From: a bacterium
GTDB taxonomy: Bacteria; Patescibacteriota; Gracilibacteria; JAHISY01
Assembly (NCBI GenBank): GCA_021779375.1
Contig: JAJYAT010000003.1
Location: 62,001-126,000, forward strand
Direction: 5' to 3'
DNA: 64,000 nt
Every line of letters starts with the position of its first letter. The stretch's first letter is position 1. The notes beneath the pieces are model-generated. The model saw only the letters and a list, made by a program, of their open reading frames with translations. It was not told the origin of the DNA and did not search any database. The translations under genes and the position numbers were made by a program. Below are positions 14,613 through 27,365 of the stretch, piece by piece.

Positions 14613-14628
14613 CAAAGATTGCGAGAAA

Positions 14629-14768
14629 TGGAGCGGATGATCCCGCTAGGCGGGACGACCTGCGCTTTTTAAATTGGAGCGGATGATCCCGCTAGGCGGG
14701 ACGACCTGCGCTCTGTGAAGTTGGAGCGGATGATCCCGCTAAGCGGGACGACCTGCGCTCTGTGAAGT
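14629..14768 (-). repeat. three tandem half-tRNA-Gly repeats
   Basis: Three units of 46-47 bases begin at 14629, 14675 and 14722, in register with the 3' end of tRNA-Gly at 14769. Read on the minus strand each unit ends AGGTCG - 16-nt hairpin - CATCCGCTCCA. That is the tRNA-Gly variable region, a T-arm-sized hairpin of the same 16-nt length, the 3' acceptor strand, discriminator and CCA. The T-arm itself is replaced by TCCCGC-(CTA or TTA)-GCGGGA. Units differ by few bases. Confidence 0.85.
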
Positions 14769-14845
14769 TGGAGCGGATGACCGGGTTCGAACCGGCGACC
14801 TCCACCTTGGCAAGGTGGCGCTCTAGCCAACTGAGCTACATCCGC
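14769..14845 (-). tRNA. tRNA-Gly (anticodon GCC)
   Basis: Cloverleaf of 77 bases with encoded CCA. Acceptor GCGGATG pairs with CATCCGC; the anticodon stem CCACC/GGTGG encloses TTGCCAA, anticodon GCC; T-loop TTCGAAC. TAAAAT lies 9 nt before the mature 5' end. It reads GGC and GGU codons. Confidence 0.97.
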
Positions 14846-24217: not shown

Positions 24218-24793
24218 TTATTTTCTCAGTCGTTCCTCGTCTTTTTCCCAATTTTCAGGGTTCTGCCAAATGTAATCACGAATGTTATTTAATTCATCGT
24301 CGTCGCGAATGACATGGTCGTGAAATGATTTTTGCCAGACGGAATAAATTTGAGAATTTTGTTGGCGGATGATTCGGGTGACCGATGATTTGAATCCGTG
24401 AATTATTTTTGGAATCGCCATTTTGGTTCGATCAATTTTTTGTGATTGTGTTTGTGGAGAACACGGTATTTGTAGGGAACGCAGATCTGCGTTCCCTACG
24501 CGTTTTATAATTTTGTTCGAATTTTCAATCCAAATCAACCCGTGCACATGATTCGGCATCACCACGAATTCATCCAATTTTGCATTCGGAAAATGGTCGG
24601 GGATTTCGCGCCAACATTTTGTGGTGACCCGACCCAATTCATTCAAGACCATTTTGTTATTTTGAATTTCGCCAAAAATATTTTCGCGATTGGCGGTGCA
24701 GATGGTGATGAAATATGCGCCGTCGTTCGCGTAATCGAAATCTTTCAGTCGCGGCAATTTGCGGTCGCGGTCGGGGTGGGACGAGGCGCGCAT
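24218..24793 (-). CDS. REP-associated tyrosine transposase (RAYT), copy A
   Basis: This 191-residue protein is a Y1/HUH single-strand transposase of the RAYT group. Seen: RKLPRLKDFDYANDGAYFIT, the HUH motif in VVMPNHVHGLIW (near residue 83), SVWQKSFHDHVIRDDDEL, and DYIWQNPENW, whose Tyr matches the YIxxNP catalytic tyrosine of bacterial RAYTs. Family knowledge: RAYTs act on REP palindromes that carry a GTAG tetranucleotide. A 28-bp palindrome of that type (24472-24499) lies inside the gene and encodes VGNADLRSL; two more lie just upstream (24872, 24922). Copy B at 59642 is a paralogue. Motifs look intact, so it may be active. Confidence 0.88.
   Translation of the reverse strand: MRASSHPDRDRKLPRLKDFDYANDGAYFITICTANRENIFGEIQNNKMVLNELGRVTTKCWREIPDHFPNAKLDEFVVMPNHVHGLIWIENSNKIIKRVGNADLRSLQIPCSPQTQSQKIDRTKMAIPKIIHGFKSSVTRIIRQQNSQIYSVWQKSFHDHVIRDDDELNNIRDYIWQNPENWEKDEERLRK
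24472..24499. repeat. 28-bp perfect palindrome inside RAYT copy A
   Basis: GTAGGGAACGCAGA followed by its exact reverse complement. The same 28 bases recur at 24922, with shared flank CGGTATTT on the left. Confidence 0.9.
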
Positions 24794-25019: not shown

Positions 25020-26477
25020 CTATTTCTCCGGCTTCAGCAGCGGAAAGAGGACCACGTCTTTTAGATTGTCCGAATTCGTCAGGAGCGCAGTGAGTCGATC
25101 GATTCCAATTCCCCAACCAGCCGCGGGTGGCATGCCGTGCGCCAATGCGCGGACAAATTCTTCGTCATTTTCCATCGCTTCGGGATCACCGCCATCACGC
25201 GCTTTTTGTTGTTTGGCGAAACGCTCGGCTTGATCGTCGGCGTCAGTCAATTCGCTGAAAGCGTTGATCACCTCCCAGCCATTGATCACGAGTTGGAAGC
25301 GATCGACTTTTTTCGGATTGGCGTCATTGCGGCGCGAAAGTGGGGAGAGCTCGACGGGGTGGCCGACGATGAAAGTCGGGTTCACGATTTTCTCGCGCAG
25401 GACTTTTTTGTACAGCGCGTCGATCAGATTGCCGCGACCGAGCTTCGGCAAATTCGCGACTTCGATTTTGAGCTCTTTGATTTTCGCGCGAATGTCCTCG
25501 TCGCTCGCGCTCGCCAGATCGAGTCCGGCTTCTCGCGAAATTCCTTCGACGAGGTCGACTCTCGGGAAAGGTCCGCGGAGCGAAATCTTTTGTCCGCCGA
25601 ATTCAATCTCGTCTTTGCCCAAAATTTTCACAATCGTGGCAAACATCCGCTCTGCCAGCTTCAACAAAAATTCATAATTCTCATAACCAGCGTAAAGCTC
25701 GAGCATCGTGAAATCCTGGAGGTGCGTCGGGTCGATGCCTTCGTTGCGGAAGCAGCGCGCGAATTCGAAAACGCGCTCGAAGCCGCCGATCAGGCAGCGC
25801 TTGAGATAAGTCTCGGGTGCGATGCGAAGGACGCAATCGAAATCCAGCGCTTCGTGATGCGTGCGAAAAGGTTTGGCGACGGCGCCGCTCGGTTTGGATT
25901 GGAGCACGGGCGTCTCGACTTCGACGAAGCCTTCACTTTCAAAAAAGCTGCGCAGGGATTTGATTAATTGCGAGCGAAACAAAAAGCGCTCGCGCGTCTC
26001 GCGATTCGTTGCGAGGTCGAGGTGGCGTTCGCGGTATTTTTTCTCGATGTCAGCGAGTCCGTGAAATTTCTCGGGCAGCGGGGAAAGGCTCTTCGTCAGC
26101 ATGGTGAGTTCCGCGACGAGGAGACTCGGCTCGCCGTGCTTCGTCGTGAAAGTCGTCCCGGTCGCGCCGACGATGTCACCGAGGTCGAGATTTTTCGCCC
26201 ACAGTGCGAAGTCCTTTGTTTGACCGTCTTGAATTACGATCTGATATTCGCCGGACAGACTCGCTAATTTCAAAAAGGCGAGCTTGCCCATCTGGCGCAG
26301 CTGCAAAATTCTCCCAGCGACCGCGACAGCGGGCGTGCCATCTTTCAAAGCTTTGGCGGCGGTGAGATCGTGCGTTTTGGCGAAGTGGTCAGCGAAAGGA
26401 TTCACGCCAGCCGCACGCAAAGCGGCAGCGCGCTCGCGGCGCATTTTCTCTTCGGAAATATTTTTAGGCTCGTTCAT
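25020..26477 (-). CDS. lysS: lysyl-tRNA synthetase, class II
   Basis: LysS charges tRNA-Lys with lysine. The 485-residue product has an N-terminal OB fold (VAVAGRILQLRQMGKLAFLKL, residues 50-70), class II motif 1 (SFFESEGFVEVETPVL), motif 2 (FEFARCFRNEGIDPTHLQDF, near residue 240) and motif 3 (GWGIGIDRLTALL, near 458). Length is typical. Its 3' end faces RAYT copy A with the REP palindromes between. No TAAAAT box sits at the usual distance; a TAAACT stretch lies about 20 nt upstream of the start. Confidence 0.96.
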   Translation of the reverse strand: MNEPKNISEEKMRRERAAALRAAGVNPFADHFAKTHDLTAAKALKDGTPAVAVAGRILQLRQMGKLAFLKLASLSGEYQIVIQDGQTKDFALWAKNLDLGDIVGATGTTFTTKHGEPSLLVAELTMLTKSLSPLPEKFHGLADIEKKYRERHLDLATNRETRERFLFRSQLIKSLRSFFESEGFVEVETPVLQSKPSGAVAKPFRTHHEALDFDCVLRIAPETYLKRCLIGGFERVFEFARCFRNEGIDPTHLQDFTMLELYAGYENYEFLLKLAERMFATIVKILGKDEIEFGGQKISLRGPFPRVDLVEGISREAGLDLASASDEDIRAKIKELKIEVANLPKLGRGNLIDALYKKVLREKIVNPTFIVGHPVELSPLSRRNDANPKKVDRFQLVINGWEVINAFSELTDADDQAERFAKQQKARDGGDPEAMENDEEFVRALAHGMPPAAGWGIGIDRLTALLTNSDNLKDVVLFPLLKPEK

Positions 26478-26534: not shown

Positions 26535-26540
26535 TAAAAT
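26535..26540 (+). promoter_or_regulatory. -10 box (TAAAAT), tRNA-Arg region
   Basis: TAAAAT 13 nt before the tRNA-Arg-like partial copy and 84 nt before the real tRNA-Arg. Confidence 0.5.
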
Positions 26541-26553
26541 CCGTCAGCTTTTC

Positions 26554-26601
26554 GTGCGCCCGTAGCTTCCACCTTCGCCAAGGCTTCGGTGGACGGGCGG
26601 C
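26554..26601 (+). repeat. partial tRNA-Arg-like element
   Basis: GTGCGCCCGTAGCT here is an exact copy of the first bases of the tRNA-Arg region at 26623. It is followed by a hairpin TCCACC...GGTGGA and then CGGGCG, which can pair with CGCCCG as in an acceptor stem. The rest of the tRNA is replaced by the hairpin. Confidence 0.55.
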
Positions 26602-26624
26602 TGGTTAGCAGCAAAAAATAATGT

Positions 26625-26701
26625 GCGCCCGTAGCTCAGCTGGATAGAGCATCAGCTTGCGGAGCTGGGGGTCGTAGGTTCAAATCCTGCCGGGCGCACC
26701 A
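26625..26701 (+). tRNA. tRNA-Arg (anticodon GCG)
   Basis: 77-base cloverleaf with encoded CCA: acceptor GCGCCCG/CGGGCGC, D-arm GCTC/GAGC with A in the D-loop as in tRNA-Arg, anticodon stem TCAGC/GCTGG around TTGCGGA (anticodon GCG), T-arm with TTCAAAT. Bacteria usually read CGN with an ACG tRNA modified to inosine; GCG is uncommon. Confidence 0.93.
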
Positions 26702-26739: not shown

Positions 26740-26823
26740 AGCATGAAACGTGGAACATGGAATATGGAGCAAGCTGTTTTTGTTATGCGCCCAATGCTCC
26801 ATGTTATGTGCTATGTGTTCCAC
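26740..26823. repeat. degenerate ATGGAACATGGAA / GCTCCATGTTATGTGC repeat
   Basis: Near-copies of GTGGAACATGGAATATGGAGC and, in the other orientation, GCTCCATGTTATGTGCTATG. Related to the repeat at 470-506. Confidence 0.5.
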
Positions 26824-26832
26824 GATTGGCGC

Positions 26833-26891: not shown

Positions 26892-27365
26892 ATGCCAACC
26901 AAGACTGGTCAGACCGAATTCGCTCTTAGTGAAGTTATCATCATGACGAGCACGCGCCTGCGTGCCATCGCTAATCGTTGCGTTTTCCGTGAGAGCAAAA
27001 TCACCGGCACGCAATTTCGGATTTTGCGTTTGCTCATGCTCAAGGATAAGCAGCAGCCGACTGAGGTTTTGAAGTTGGTGGGCGGTACGAAATCCAACGT
27101 AAGTCAGCGCATCAAATCACTGGAAAAGCAGGGCTTCGTCGTGCGTTCGGCACAAGTCGGAACAGATCGTCGCAACGTCTACATCGCGATTACTGAGGCG
27201 GGGCGCAAGTTGGTCGAGGGACTGATGCAGCGTTTTCATAAGGCGGCGAAGTCGCTTGAAAATCAATTCTCGCAAAAGGAGGTCGCAGCGCAGTTTGAGT
27301 TTTTCAAAAAACTGAACCAGTTGCTTGATGACAATGAACAAACCATTATTAAGCTTTTCGAATAA
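26892..27365 (+). CDS. MarR-family transcriptional regulator
   Basis: The 157-residue product has the winged-helix core of MarR: FRILRLLMLKDKQQPTEVLKLV, the recognition helix region GGTKSNVSQRIKSLEKQGFVVRSA and the wing with QVGTDRRNVYIAITEAGRKLVEGL, then a long C-terminal dimerisation helix. MarR dimers bind inverted repeats and release them on ligand binding. It is the first gene of an operon with an RND efflux pair (27393, 29137), and a perfect inverted repeat overlaps its promoter, so autoregulation and control of the pump are likely. The ligand is unknown. Confidence 0.9.
   Translation: MPTKTGQTEFALSEVIIMTSTRLRAIANRCVFRESKITGTQFRILRLLMLKDKQQPTEVLKLVGGTKSNVSQRIKSLEKQGFVVRSAQVGTDRRNVYIAITEAGRKLVEGLMQRFHKAAKSLENQFSQKEVAAQFEFFKKLNQLLDDNEQTIIKLFE

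Follow-up and report, generated by a model that had tools for sequence, protein, structure and literature searches.

What gave rise to the truncated, hairpin-bearing copy of a tRNA 5′ end that lies just upstream of an intact tRNA-Arg gene in a member of Gracilibacteria? The locus is part of a contiguous stretch of 64,000 nucleotides (hereafter the window), and an earlier note on this DNA had regarded the copy as a tRNA-like decoy with a palindrome in it. Here, we have compared it with the other tRNA genes of the same genome, with orthologous loci in relatives, and with a family of small nuclease genes found beside tRNA genes in several bacterial phyla. It is probable (roughly two chances in three) that the feature is the scar of a small, homing-like GIY-YIG element that invades tRNA genes.

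The tRNA-Arg locus and its displaced 5′ piece

The intact tRNA-Arg gene (anticodon GCG; 26625-26701, + strand) was identified by ARAGORN and by Rfam (RF00005, 66.5 bits). It is flanked on the left by a lysyl-tRNA synthetase-like gene (lysS; ORF at 25020-26477, - strand; PF00152, 2.3e-79), which fixes the orthology of the locus, and on the right by a gene for a MarR-family regulator (ORF at 26892-27365, + strand; PF12802, 4.4e-9). An exact 14-nt repeat, GTGCGCCCGTAGCT, is present at 26554-26567 and again at 26623-26636, and its first copy, on the + strand, is the displaced 5′ tRNA piece, composed of GT and tRNA-Arg positions 1-12 (GCGCCCGTAGCT). The piece continues with the hairpin TCCACCTTCGCCAAGGCTTCGGTGGA (TCCACC...GGTGGA; 26568-26593, + strand), and then with CGGGCG (26594-26599) and a D-arm remnant, GCTGGTTAGCAGC, which reads CAGCTGGATAGAGC in the tRNA itself (together 26594-26612, + strand; delimited by alignment with the orthologous copy in the relative G004 and a decayed copy in G002). 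When folded as a single strand, the piece forms both stems (z = -2.4). The repeat, the hairpin with CGGGCG behind it, and the duplication of part of a tRNA whose inside was replaced by a hairpin had all been described correctly in the earlier note. Its suggestion that CGGGCG closes an acceptor-like stem did not hold: the piece in G004, which contains an orthologous hairpin with a different loop, has CAAGCAG at this place, and beyond the hairpin the two pieces share the D-arm remnant GCTGGnTAGC. Since CGGGCG is not conserved and the shared part is the D-arm remnant, the hairpin is placed within the D stem of the piece.

A comparison of relatives revealed occupied and empty versions of this site. 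The insert between lysS and tRNA-Arg(gcg) occurs in the window genome (G000) and in G004, has decayed in G002, and is lacking in G001 and G003; G005 has no insert upstream of this tRNA either. The -10-like promoter box of the tRNA transcription unit, TAAAAT (26535-26540, + strand), is located directly 5′ of tRNA-Arg in the insert-free G001 and G003, so that it precedes the piece where the site is occupied and the tRNA where it is empty. The start of the piece corresponds to the start of the tRNA in insert-free relatives, a little 3′ of the box. A search of the genome with the PF01541 profile gave no match anywhere in the window, the surroundings of the Arg scar included; with no nuclease gene nearby, the link between scar and element rests on anatomy, place, and orthologues.

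Two further features were observed in the surroundings. Downstream of tRNA-Arg, at 26742-26825, CATGAAACGTGGAACATGGAATATGGAGC and GCTCCATGTTATGTGCTATGTGTTCCACG form a large imperfect inverted repeat, and similar sequences occur in other flanks. In addition, a gene for an IS200-like Y1 transposase, of the RAYT type by reading, lies 0.2 kb from lysS (24218-24793, - strand; PF01797, 1.1e-8).

The tRNA-Gly array

The second case in the window is the intact tRNA-Gly gene (anticodon GCC; 14769-14845, - strand; ARAGORN), whose 3′ end is repeated downstream in three tandem copies of 46-47 bp on the same strand. The first copy (14718-14764) has TCCCGCTTAGCGGGA instead of the T arm, and the second (14671-14717) and third (14625-14671) have TCCCGCCTAGCGGGA; in these copies TCCCGC..GCGGGA exactly replaces the T arm, positions 51-65. 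The parallel that had been drawn between the two tRNAs is therefore real, with the difference that the Gly copies are three 3′ pieces, lie on the 3′ side, and have the T arm exchanged. For the remaining two tRNAs of the window, tRNA-Glu and tRNA-Val, no piece of themselves was found nearby, which agrees with the earlier count of two affected tRNAs among four. Tandem tRNA 3′ ends downstream of a tRNA are also known as the RtT repeats of Escherichia coli tyrT, which are not known to have a hairpin swap or a nuclease.

tRNA pieces across the genome and its relatives

The genome comprises 1.07 Mb in 14 contigs and encodes 46 tRNAs. Such copies recur at other tRNA genes, so that the finding named in the earlier note as a refutation, their absence from all others, was not obtained: self-matches of at least 10 nt within 300 bp on either side were found on the tRNA's own strand for 15 of the 46 tRNAs and on the opposite strand for one, and exchanging flanks between tRNAs of different amino acids gave a mean of 2.2 and a maximum of 7 (200 shuffles). 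The opposite-strand and swapped-flank controls rule out chance repeats. By chains and by reading of the sequence, the piece-bearing tRNAs are Phe, Ala-tgc, Ala-ggc, Ala-cgc, Asn, Tyr, Leu-gag, Leu-taa, Gly-gcc, Arg-tct, Arg-gcg, Lys-ctt, Pro-cgg, Pro-ggg, and Asp. A hairpin is present in the pieces of all of these except Ala-cgc, and in most pieces of the genome it stands for one arm of the cloverleaf. Several swaps are exact to the borders of an arm: the D arm (t11-23) in Phe and Lys, the anticodon arm (t28-44) in Ala-tgc, and the T arm (t51-65) in Gly and Pro-cgg. Under chain scoring within this genome, the Arg-gcg piece scores 9, below the cut, and three low chains (Asn DN, Met UP, and Leu-taa UP; scores 10.6-11.4) are probably noise, because five opposite-strand chains reach 10.2-13.9. 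Given such low scores, the weakest pieces of the genome (Arg-gcg, Asp, and Leu-taa) are backed by orthologues or by the hairpin family and not by score.

The pattern extends to relatives. Across six genomes, a piece of at least 11 nt was detected on the own strand at 62 of 195 tRNAs and on the opposite strand at 3, the sample consisting of all 46 tRNAs of G000 and of 36 of 43, 11 of 22, 37 of 42, 29 of 33, and 36 of 42 in G001 to G005, respectively. When seven tRNA loci were searched against Rfam, no family besides tRNA was found there. An explanation by group I, group II, or tRNA introns was rejected because the intact tRNA is separate from the piece and Rfam reported only tRNA (in the window and at the seven loci).

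GIY-YIG nuclease genes beside tRNA genes

What the window does not contain is seen in complete elements, which hold a GIY-YIG nuclease gene between the piece and the tRNA. In the same genome, a hairpin-bearing piece, a complete GIY-YIG ORF, and the intact tRNA follow one another at the 5′ side of tRNA-Asn and tRNA-Leu(gag). The PF01541 profile has seven matches in this genome, one of which is UvrC by length, and four of the six stand-alone genes are located 40-133 bp from a tRNA. Thirteen loci of relatives were laid out, most of which show the order piece, ORF, and tRNA, and some of which have several pieces. With GIY-YIG ORFs of relatives in the class grouped by hand into UvrC, DLYPKL-type, and stand-alone ORFs, 25 of the 41 stand-alone ORFs have a tRNA no more than 500 bp away, and all 25 share its strand, whereas neither UvrC (0 of 5) nor the second kind of GIY-YIG protein, the DLYPKL type (0 of 12), is found near one. 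Among the 195 tRNA neighbourhoods mentioned above, a GIY-YIG ORF was found no further than 600 bp from the tRNA in 21, of which 17 contain a piece of at least 11 nt as well. Some GIY-YIG matches in genomes of the same class (G014, G018, G025, and G027) contain in-frame TGA, which fits a reading of TGA as an amino acid in part of the class.

Species of one genus differ in which tRNAs are occupied. At tRNA-Leu(tag), G003 has a 363-bp stretch that G000 and G004 lack, and the flanks on either side of it align. A nuclease gene beside its presumed target is thus found with both occupied and empty alleles, and the presence or absence is exact to the site between relatives.

A scan of 84,980 genomes (GTDB, one genome per species) yielded 52 loci, 40 of which have a tRNA no more than 500 bp away, all 40 sharing its strand; as the queries were five closely related proteins of the tRNA-linked type, these loci are biased towards Asn/Gln-type nucleases. 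By our own estimate, about 46 tRNAs per Mb place approximately 5% of positions this near to a tRNA, corresponding to 2-3 of 52 loci by chance. The other 12 protein matches have no tRNA in reach, and some of them are at contig ends. Under the phylum names given in the records, mostly of metagenome bins, the hosts include Patescibacteria (Altimarinota/Gracilibacteria, Moraniibacteriota, Kerfeldiibacteriota, and others) as well as Bacteroidota, Ignavibacteriota, Planctomycetota, Omnitrophota, and Bdellovibrionota. A tblastn search with one Gln-type protein found two plasmid and six phage records, all below 60% identity.

Anatomy of the complete element

The complete element occurs in two forms. 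In the 5′ form, a near-complete copy of the local tRNA, which lacks one acceptor strand and has a hairpin for one arm, is followed by the ORF and then by the intact tRNA; in the mirror (3′) form, the intact tRNA is followed by the ORF and then by a hairpin-bearing 3′ piece ending in CCA. The ORF has approximately 80-90 codons, encodes a single-domain GIY-YIG nuclease, and is on the strand of the tRNA. Typically, upstream pieces extend from tRNA position 1 to about the T-loop, and downstream pieces start in the D arm and reach CCA. In both forms it is usually the anticodon arm that is swapped, and at the Arg locus of the window it is the D arm. This anatomy, the same-strand linkage, and their repeated occurrence beside tRNAs of many kinds and across many phyla are observed directly.

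Among 66 distinct tRNA-linked loci, a pseudo-tRNA with a score of at least 8 was detected beyond the ORF in 56 and, on the reverse complement, in 13, the latter number being inflated by the palindromes; strong pseudo-tRNAs (score of at least 15) were found in 42 and on the reverse complement in none (best score 14.3). Ten of the 66 loci have no recognisable piece. A perfect stem of at least 5 bp is present in 41 of 50 replaced or interrupted stretches (random mean 3.6, maximum 8; letter shuffles 4.7, maximum 10), and CCCG..CGGG in 32 (random 0.3; shuffles 2.5, maximum 6). This set of 50 omits mismatch gaps of a few letters, the weak chains of L207, L212, L229, L120, and L121, and the second gaps of L128, L185, and L234, and it retains L203, L225, and L228, in which the replaced stretch is no hairpin. 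The junctions are mixed, with the T-loop at many pieces and the anticodon loop at some, and only 5 of 33 3′ pieces start exactly at T54. Some ORFs (L070, L112, and L189) overlap the 5′ half of the tRNA (..SGVAQW, ..HWGVAKW), with the TAG or TAA of the D-loop serving as stop codon.

Besides these elements, a second family of inserts without ORF was observed (L242, L171, L148, L305, L291, L177, L176, L006, and L019), located 3′ of tRNAs for Val, Ser, Leu, Asp, Arg, and Ala. Here the intact tRNA is followed by 100-150 nt with a hairpin, often with GCTAGC, and then by a 3′ piece of the tRNA, often starting at T54. The hairpin covaries (CCAG/CTGG, CGAG/CTCG, and CGTG/CACG, with GCGA-type loops; double changes in three of four pairs), and Rfam gave no match besides tRNA for this family (seven loci). 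In addition, a hairpin of the form TTCTTCG..CGAATGGC or TTCGTCCCGC..actcatgGCAAGCCA directly follows CCA at L029, L022, L030, L043, and L115, among others, in places tandemly repeated, and it may be either a terminator or another repeat.

The nuclease protein

In the complete elements, which unlike the window scar carry the gene, the catalytic Y, Y-G, R, and E residues are invariant in all 15 proteins compared (PF01541, 2.4e-18). The dN/dS ratio (NG86) ranges from 0.09 to 0.19 in all eight ORF pairs, at saturated dS, and the ORF is under purifying selection. Profile matches to solved chains were strongest for BH0048 (4.7e-16) and EF2693 (1.6e-15), followed by SLX1 (2.5e-9), with I-TevI at only 0.0044. 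The predicted structure, a single domain of moderate model quality (pLDDT 76), likewise has its best fold matches among UPF0213 proteins and SLX1 and not I-TevI. A C-terminal DNA-binding domain as in I-TevI and the Seg proteins is absent from these proteins of approximately 80-90 amino acids, which form one domain in the model. The tRNA-linked ORFs therefore most resemble the structure-specific UPF0213/SLX1 nucleases by profile and by fold; SLX1 works with SLX4 on branched DNA.

In a tree of 66 proteins (poorly resolved; L113, which duplicates L197, was omitted), the neighbouring tRNA switches amino acid 39 times, compared with a minimum of 43 in shuffles (0 of 300 as low), while the upstream or downstream form changes 18 times versus 22.2 in shuffles (16 of 300 as low). 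Related nucleases thus cluster on the same tRNA identity.

Comparison with known systems

Free-standing GIY-YIG homing elements, phage SegB beside tRNA genes, and GIY-YIG inserts in rRNA genes of the candidate phyla radiation (CPR) are already known. The open-licence literature, with subscription journals mostly outside it, yielded no account of minimal GIY-YIG elements that are linked to tRNA genes on the chromosome and accompanied by an arm-swapped pseudo-tRNA. Phage SegB cuts tRNA genes, with a preference for RAWTSGAAC, and gives rise to tandem tRNA-segB copies (PMC13096335). SegB of T4 and T6 is similarly a free-standing GIY-YIG homing endonuclease beside tRNA genes of many isotypes, but in phage genomes; the elements described here are located on bacterial chromosomes, encode one domain of approximately 80-90 amino acids, occur once per tRNA gene, and contain a pseudo-tRNA with a hairpin for an arm, and their cutting of tRNA genes, the activity of SegB, is putative (PMC13096335, PMC2988022).

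The insertion sequences in CPR rRNA genes are comparable in that they place GIY-YIG genes in non-intron inserts of structural RNA genes within the same radiation. They concern rRNA and not tRNA, of which the text of that study makes no mention; in that study, most inserts are placed at the top or base of stem-loops, and those with GIY-YIG genes are regarded as outside spread by homing (PMC11270868). REP/RAYT and Rickettsia-type palindromic elements are likewise short perfect palindromes dispersed in the genome, also inside genes (PMC3733652), whereas the palindromes here are concentrated in tRNA pieces and replace arms. Stand-alone homing-endonuclease ORFs of fungal mitochondria also involve a partial gene duplicate beside an intact gene in nuclease-rich DNA, but the truncated copies there are of protein genes and are explained in that study by duplication (PMC4162613).

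Proposed mechanism and alternative explanations

The best reading, by analogy, is that the element acts like phage SegB with a UPF0213/SLX1-like protein. The nuclease would cut its cognate tRNA gene, and repair would add the ORF together with a rebuilt tRNA part, so that the cell retains a functional tRNA and the original 5′ part, with the promoter, is left behind. The hairpin swap may destroy the cut site in the left-over copy and prevent its maturation as tRNA, and the new flank on the ORF side may protect the intact copy. By reading, the complement of the SegB site RAWTSGAAC would fall in the T-loop, where many pieces end or begin. At 26554-26612 the ORF would have been lost or never present, leaving the hairpin-bearing 5′ piece alone; this piece may be either the 5′ relic of such an element, without an ORF, or a relative that has no ORF and was moved in trans.

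A simple version of this mechanism faces the objection that, if the body of the tRNA is the target, the intact tRNA should also be cut. Immunity by a recoded anticodon stem of the intact tRNA was ruled out: stem differences average 1.73 in occupied/empty pairs versus 1.74 in empty/empty pairs (136 class I tRNAs, with Met tRNAs left out of the pair counts), and the stems of tRNA-Asn are the same in occupied and empty genomes. In the absence of such recoding, the source of protection must be the altered flank, regulation, or a structure-specific target, and the last of these would suit the SLX1-like fold.

The main rival is an invasion of neutral, spare tRNA pieces that arose by tandem duplication, in which REP- or RPE-like palindromes would accumulate, through an IS200-like/RAYT transposase or template switching, with the GIY-YIG gene as a bystander. 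The Y1 transposase gene at 24218-24793 is a possible mobiliser, and palindromes do occur elsewhere: CCTGCCTRCCGGCAGGCAGG has 12 sites in the genome, six of them at tRNA pieces and six not (two of the latter inside protein genes by reading), and TCCGCCnnGGCGGA is at tRNA pieces in four of its seven sites, one of the seven being inside RNase P RNA. Palindromes were located within argC-like and murD-like genes (by reading) and RNase P RNA (RF00010) at L050, L058, and L064, which correspond to C1:21910, C12:128099, and C6:491 of the same genome. This rival is therefore partly true, but for TCCCGA..TCGGGA four of five sites are in tRNA pieces, many pieces show arm-exact replacement and not insertion, and the same-arm swap recurs beside GIY-YIG genes in distant phyla, which would not be expected from neutral decay. 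It thus leaves the cross-phylum swap beside the same nuclease family unexplained, and we regard it as rather unlikely to be the whole explanation. For the Arg piece, the hairpin core has one site in 64 kb with up to three mismatches (1.1 expected); a dispersed palindrome as the sole cause was rejected since the exact core is single in the window, as was a REP/RAYT element with many copies of a GTAG-headed palindrome, GTAG being the tRNA's own.

Other explanations are weaker than an element scar. The pseudo-tRNA might be a selected RNA leader or tail that governs how the nuclease is expressed or processed or how toxic it is, or a decoy in a toxin-antitoxin-like arrangement. Over 20-30 nt the arms of the piece body match the intact tRNA exactly even though the ORFs have diverged, a hairpin-for-arm exchange would preserve a cloverleaf-like fold, and the strand is always the same; however, the piece precedes the ORF as a leader in the 5′ form and follows it as a tail in the 3′ form, which ill suits a single regulatory role, and gene conversion or recent insertion equally accounts for the identity. 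We found no support for the earlier note's decoy in the sense of a functional mimic, and consider this explanation improbable. Integrase core sites start at the T-loop and end with CCA, and some 3′ pieces resemble them in this respect (the five with a T54 start), as relics of tyrosine-recombinase attachment sites of integrative elements at tRNA 3′ ends would. Such relics are very improbable here, as the inserts measure tens to a few hundred bases and would hold no integrase, the arms are swapped, and this route does not produce 5′ pieces in front of a tRNA such as that at tRNA-Arg, so that this origin is largely refuted for 5′ pieces.

Beyond the scar itself, a broader reading is put forward tentatively, as somewhat less probable than not: a widespread class of selfish chromosomal elements, in Patescibacteria and at least five other phyla, may target tRNA genes via a minimal SLX1-like GIY-YIG nuclease and keep, under selection, an arm-exchanged pseudo-tRNA (a CCCG..CGGG hairpin for the anticodon, D, or T arm) as a working part, either as an immunity mark or as a structure recognised by the nuclease. 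The stem exchange would then be the signature of the class, whose scars would riddle tRNA neighbourhoods.

Implications

tRNA genes are landing sites of phages and islands via recombinases. The loci described here suggest that very small stand-alone nuclease genes on bacterial chromosomes, each tied to one tRNA identity, target them as well. If true, this would account for the many truncated, hairpin-bearing tRNAs in ultra-small bacteria and would provide a natural set of miniature nucleases that are either tRNA-specific or structure-specific. It would also make testable how an element that occupies an essential gene may persist if it rebuilds this gene and disarms the copy left over.
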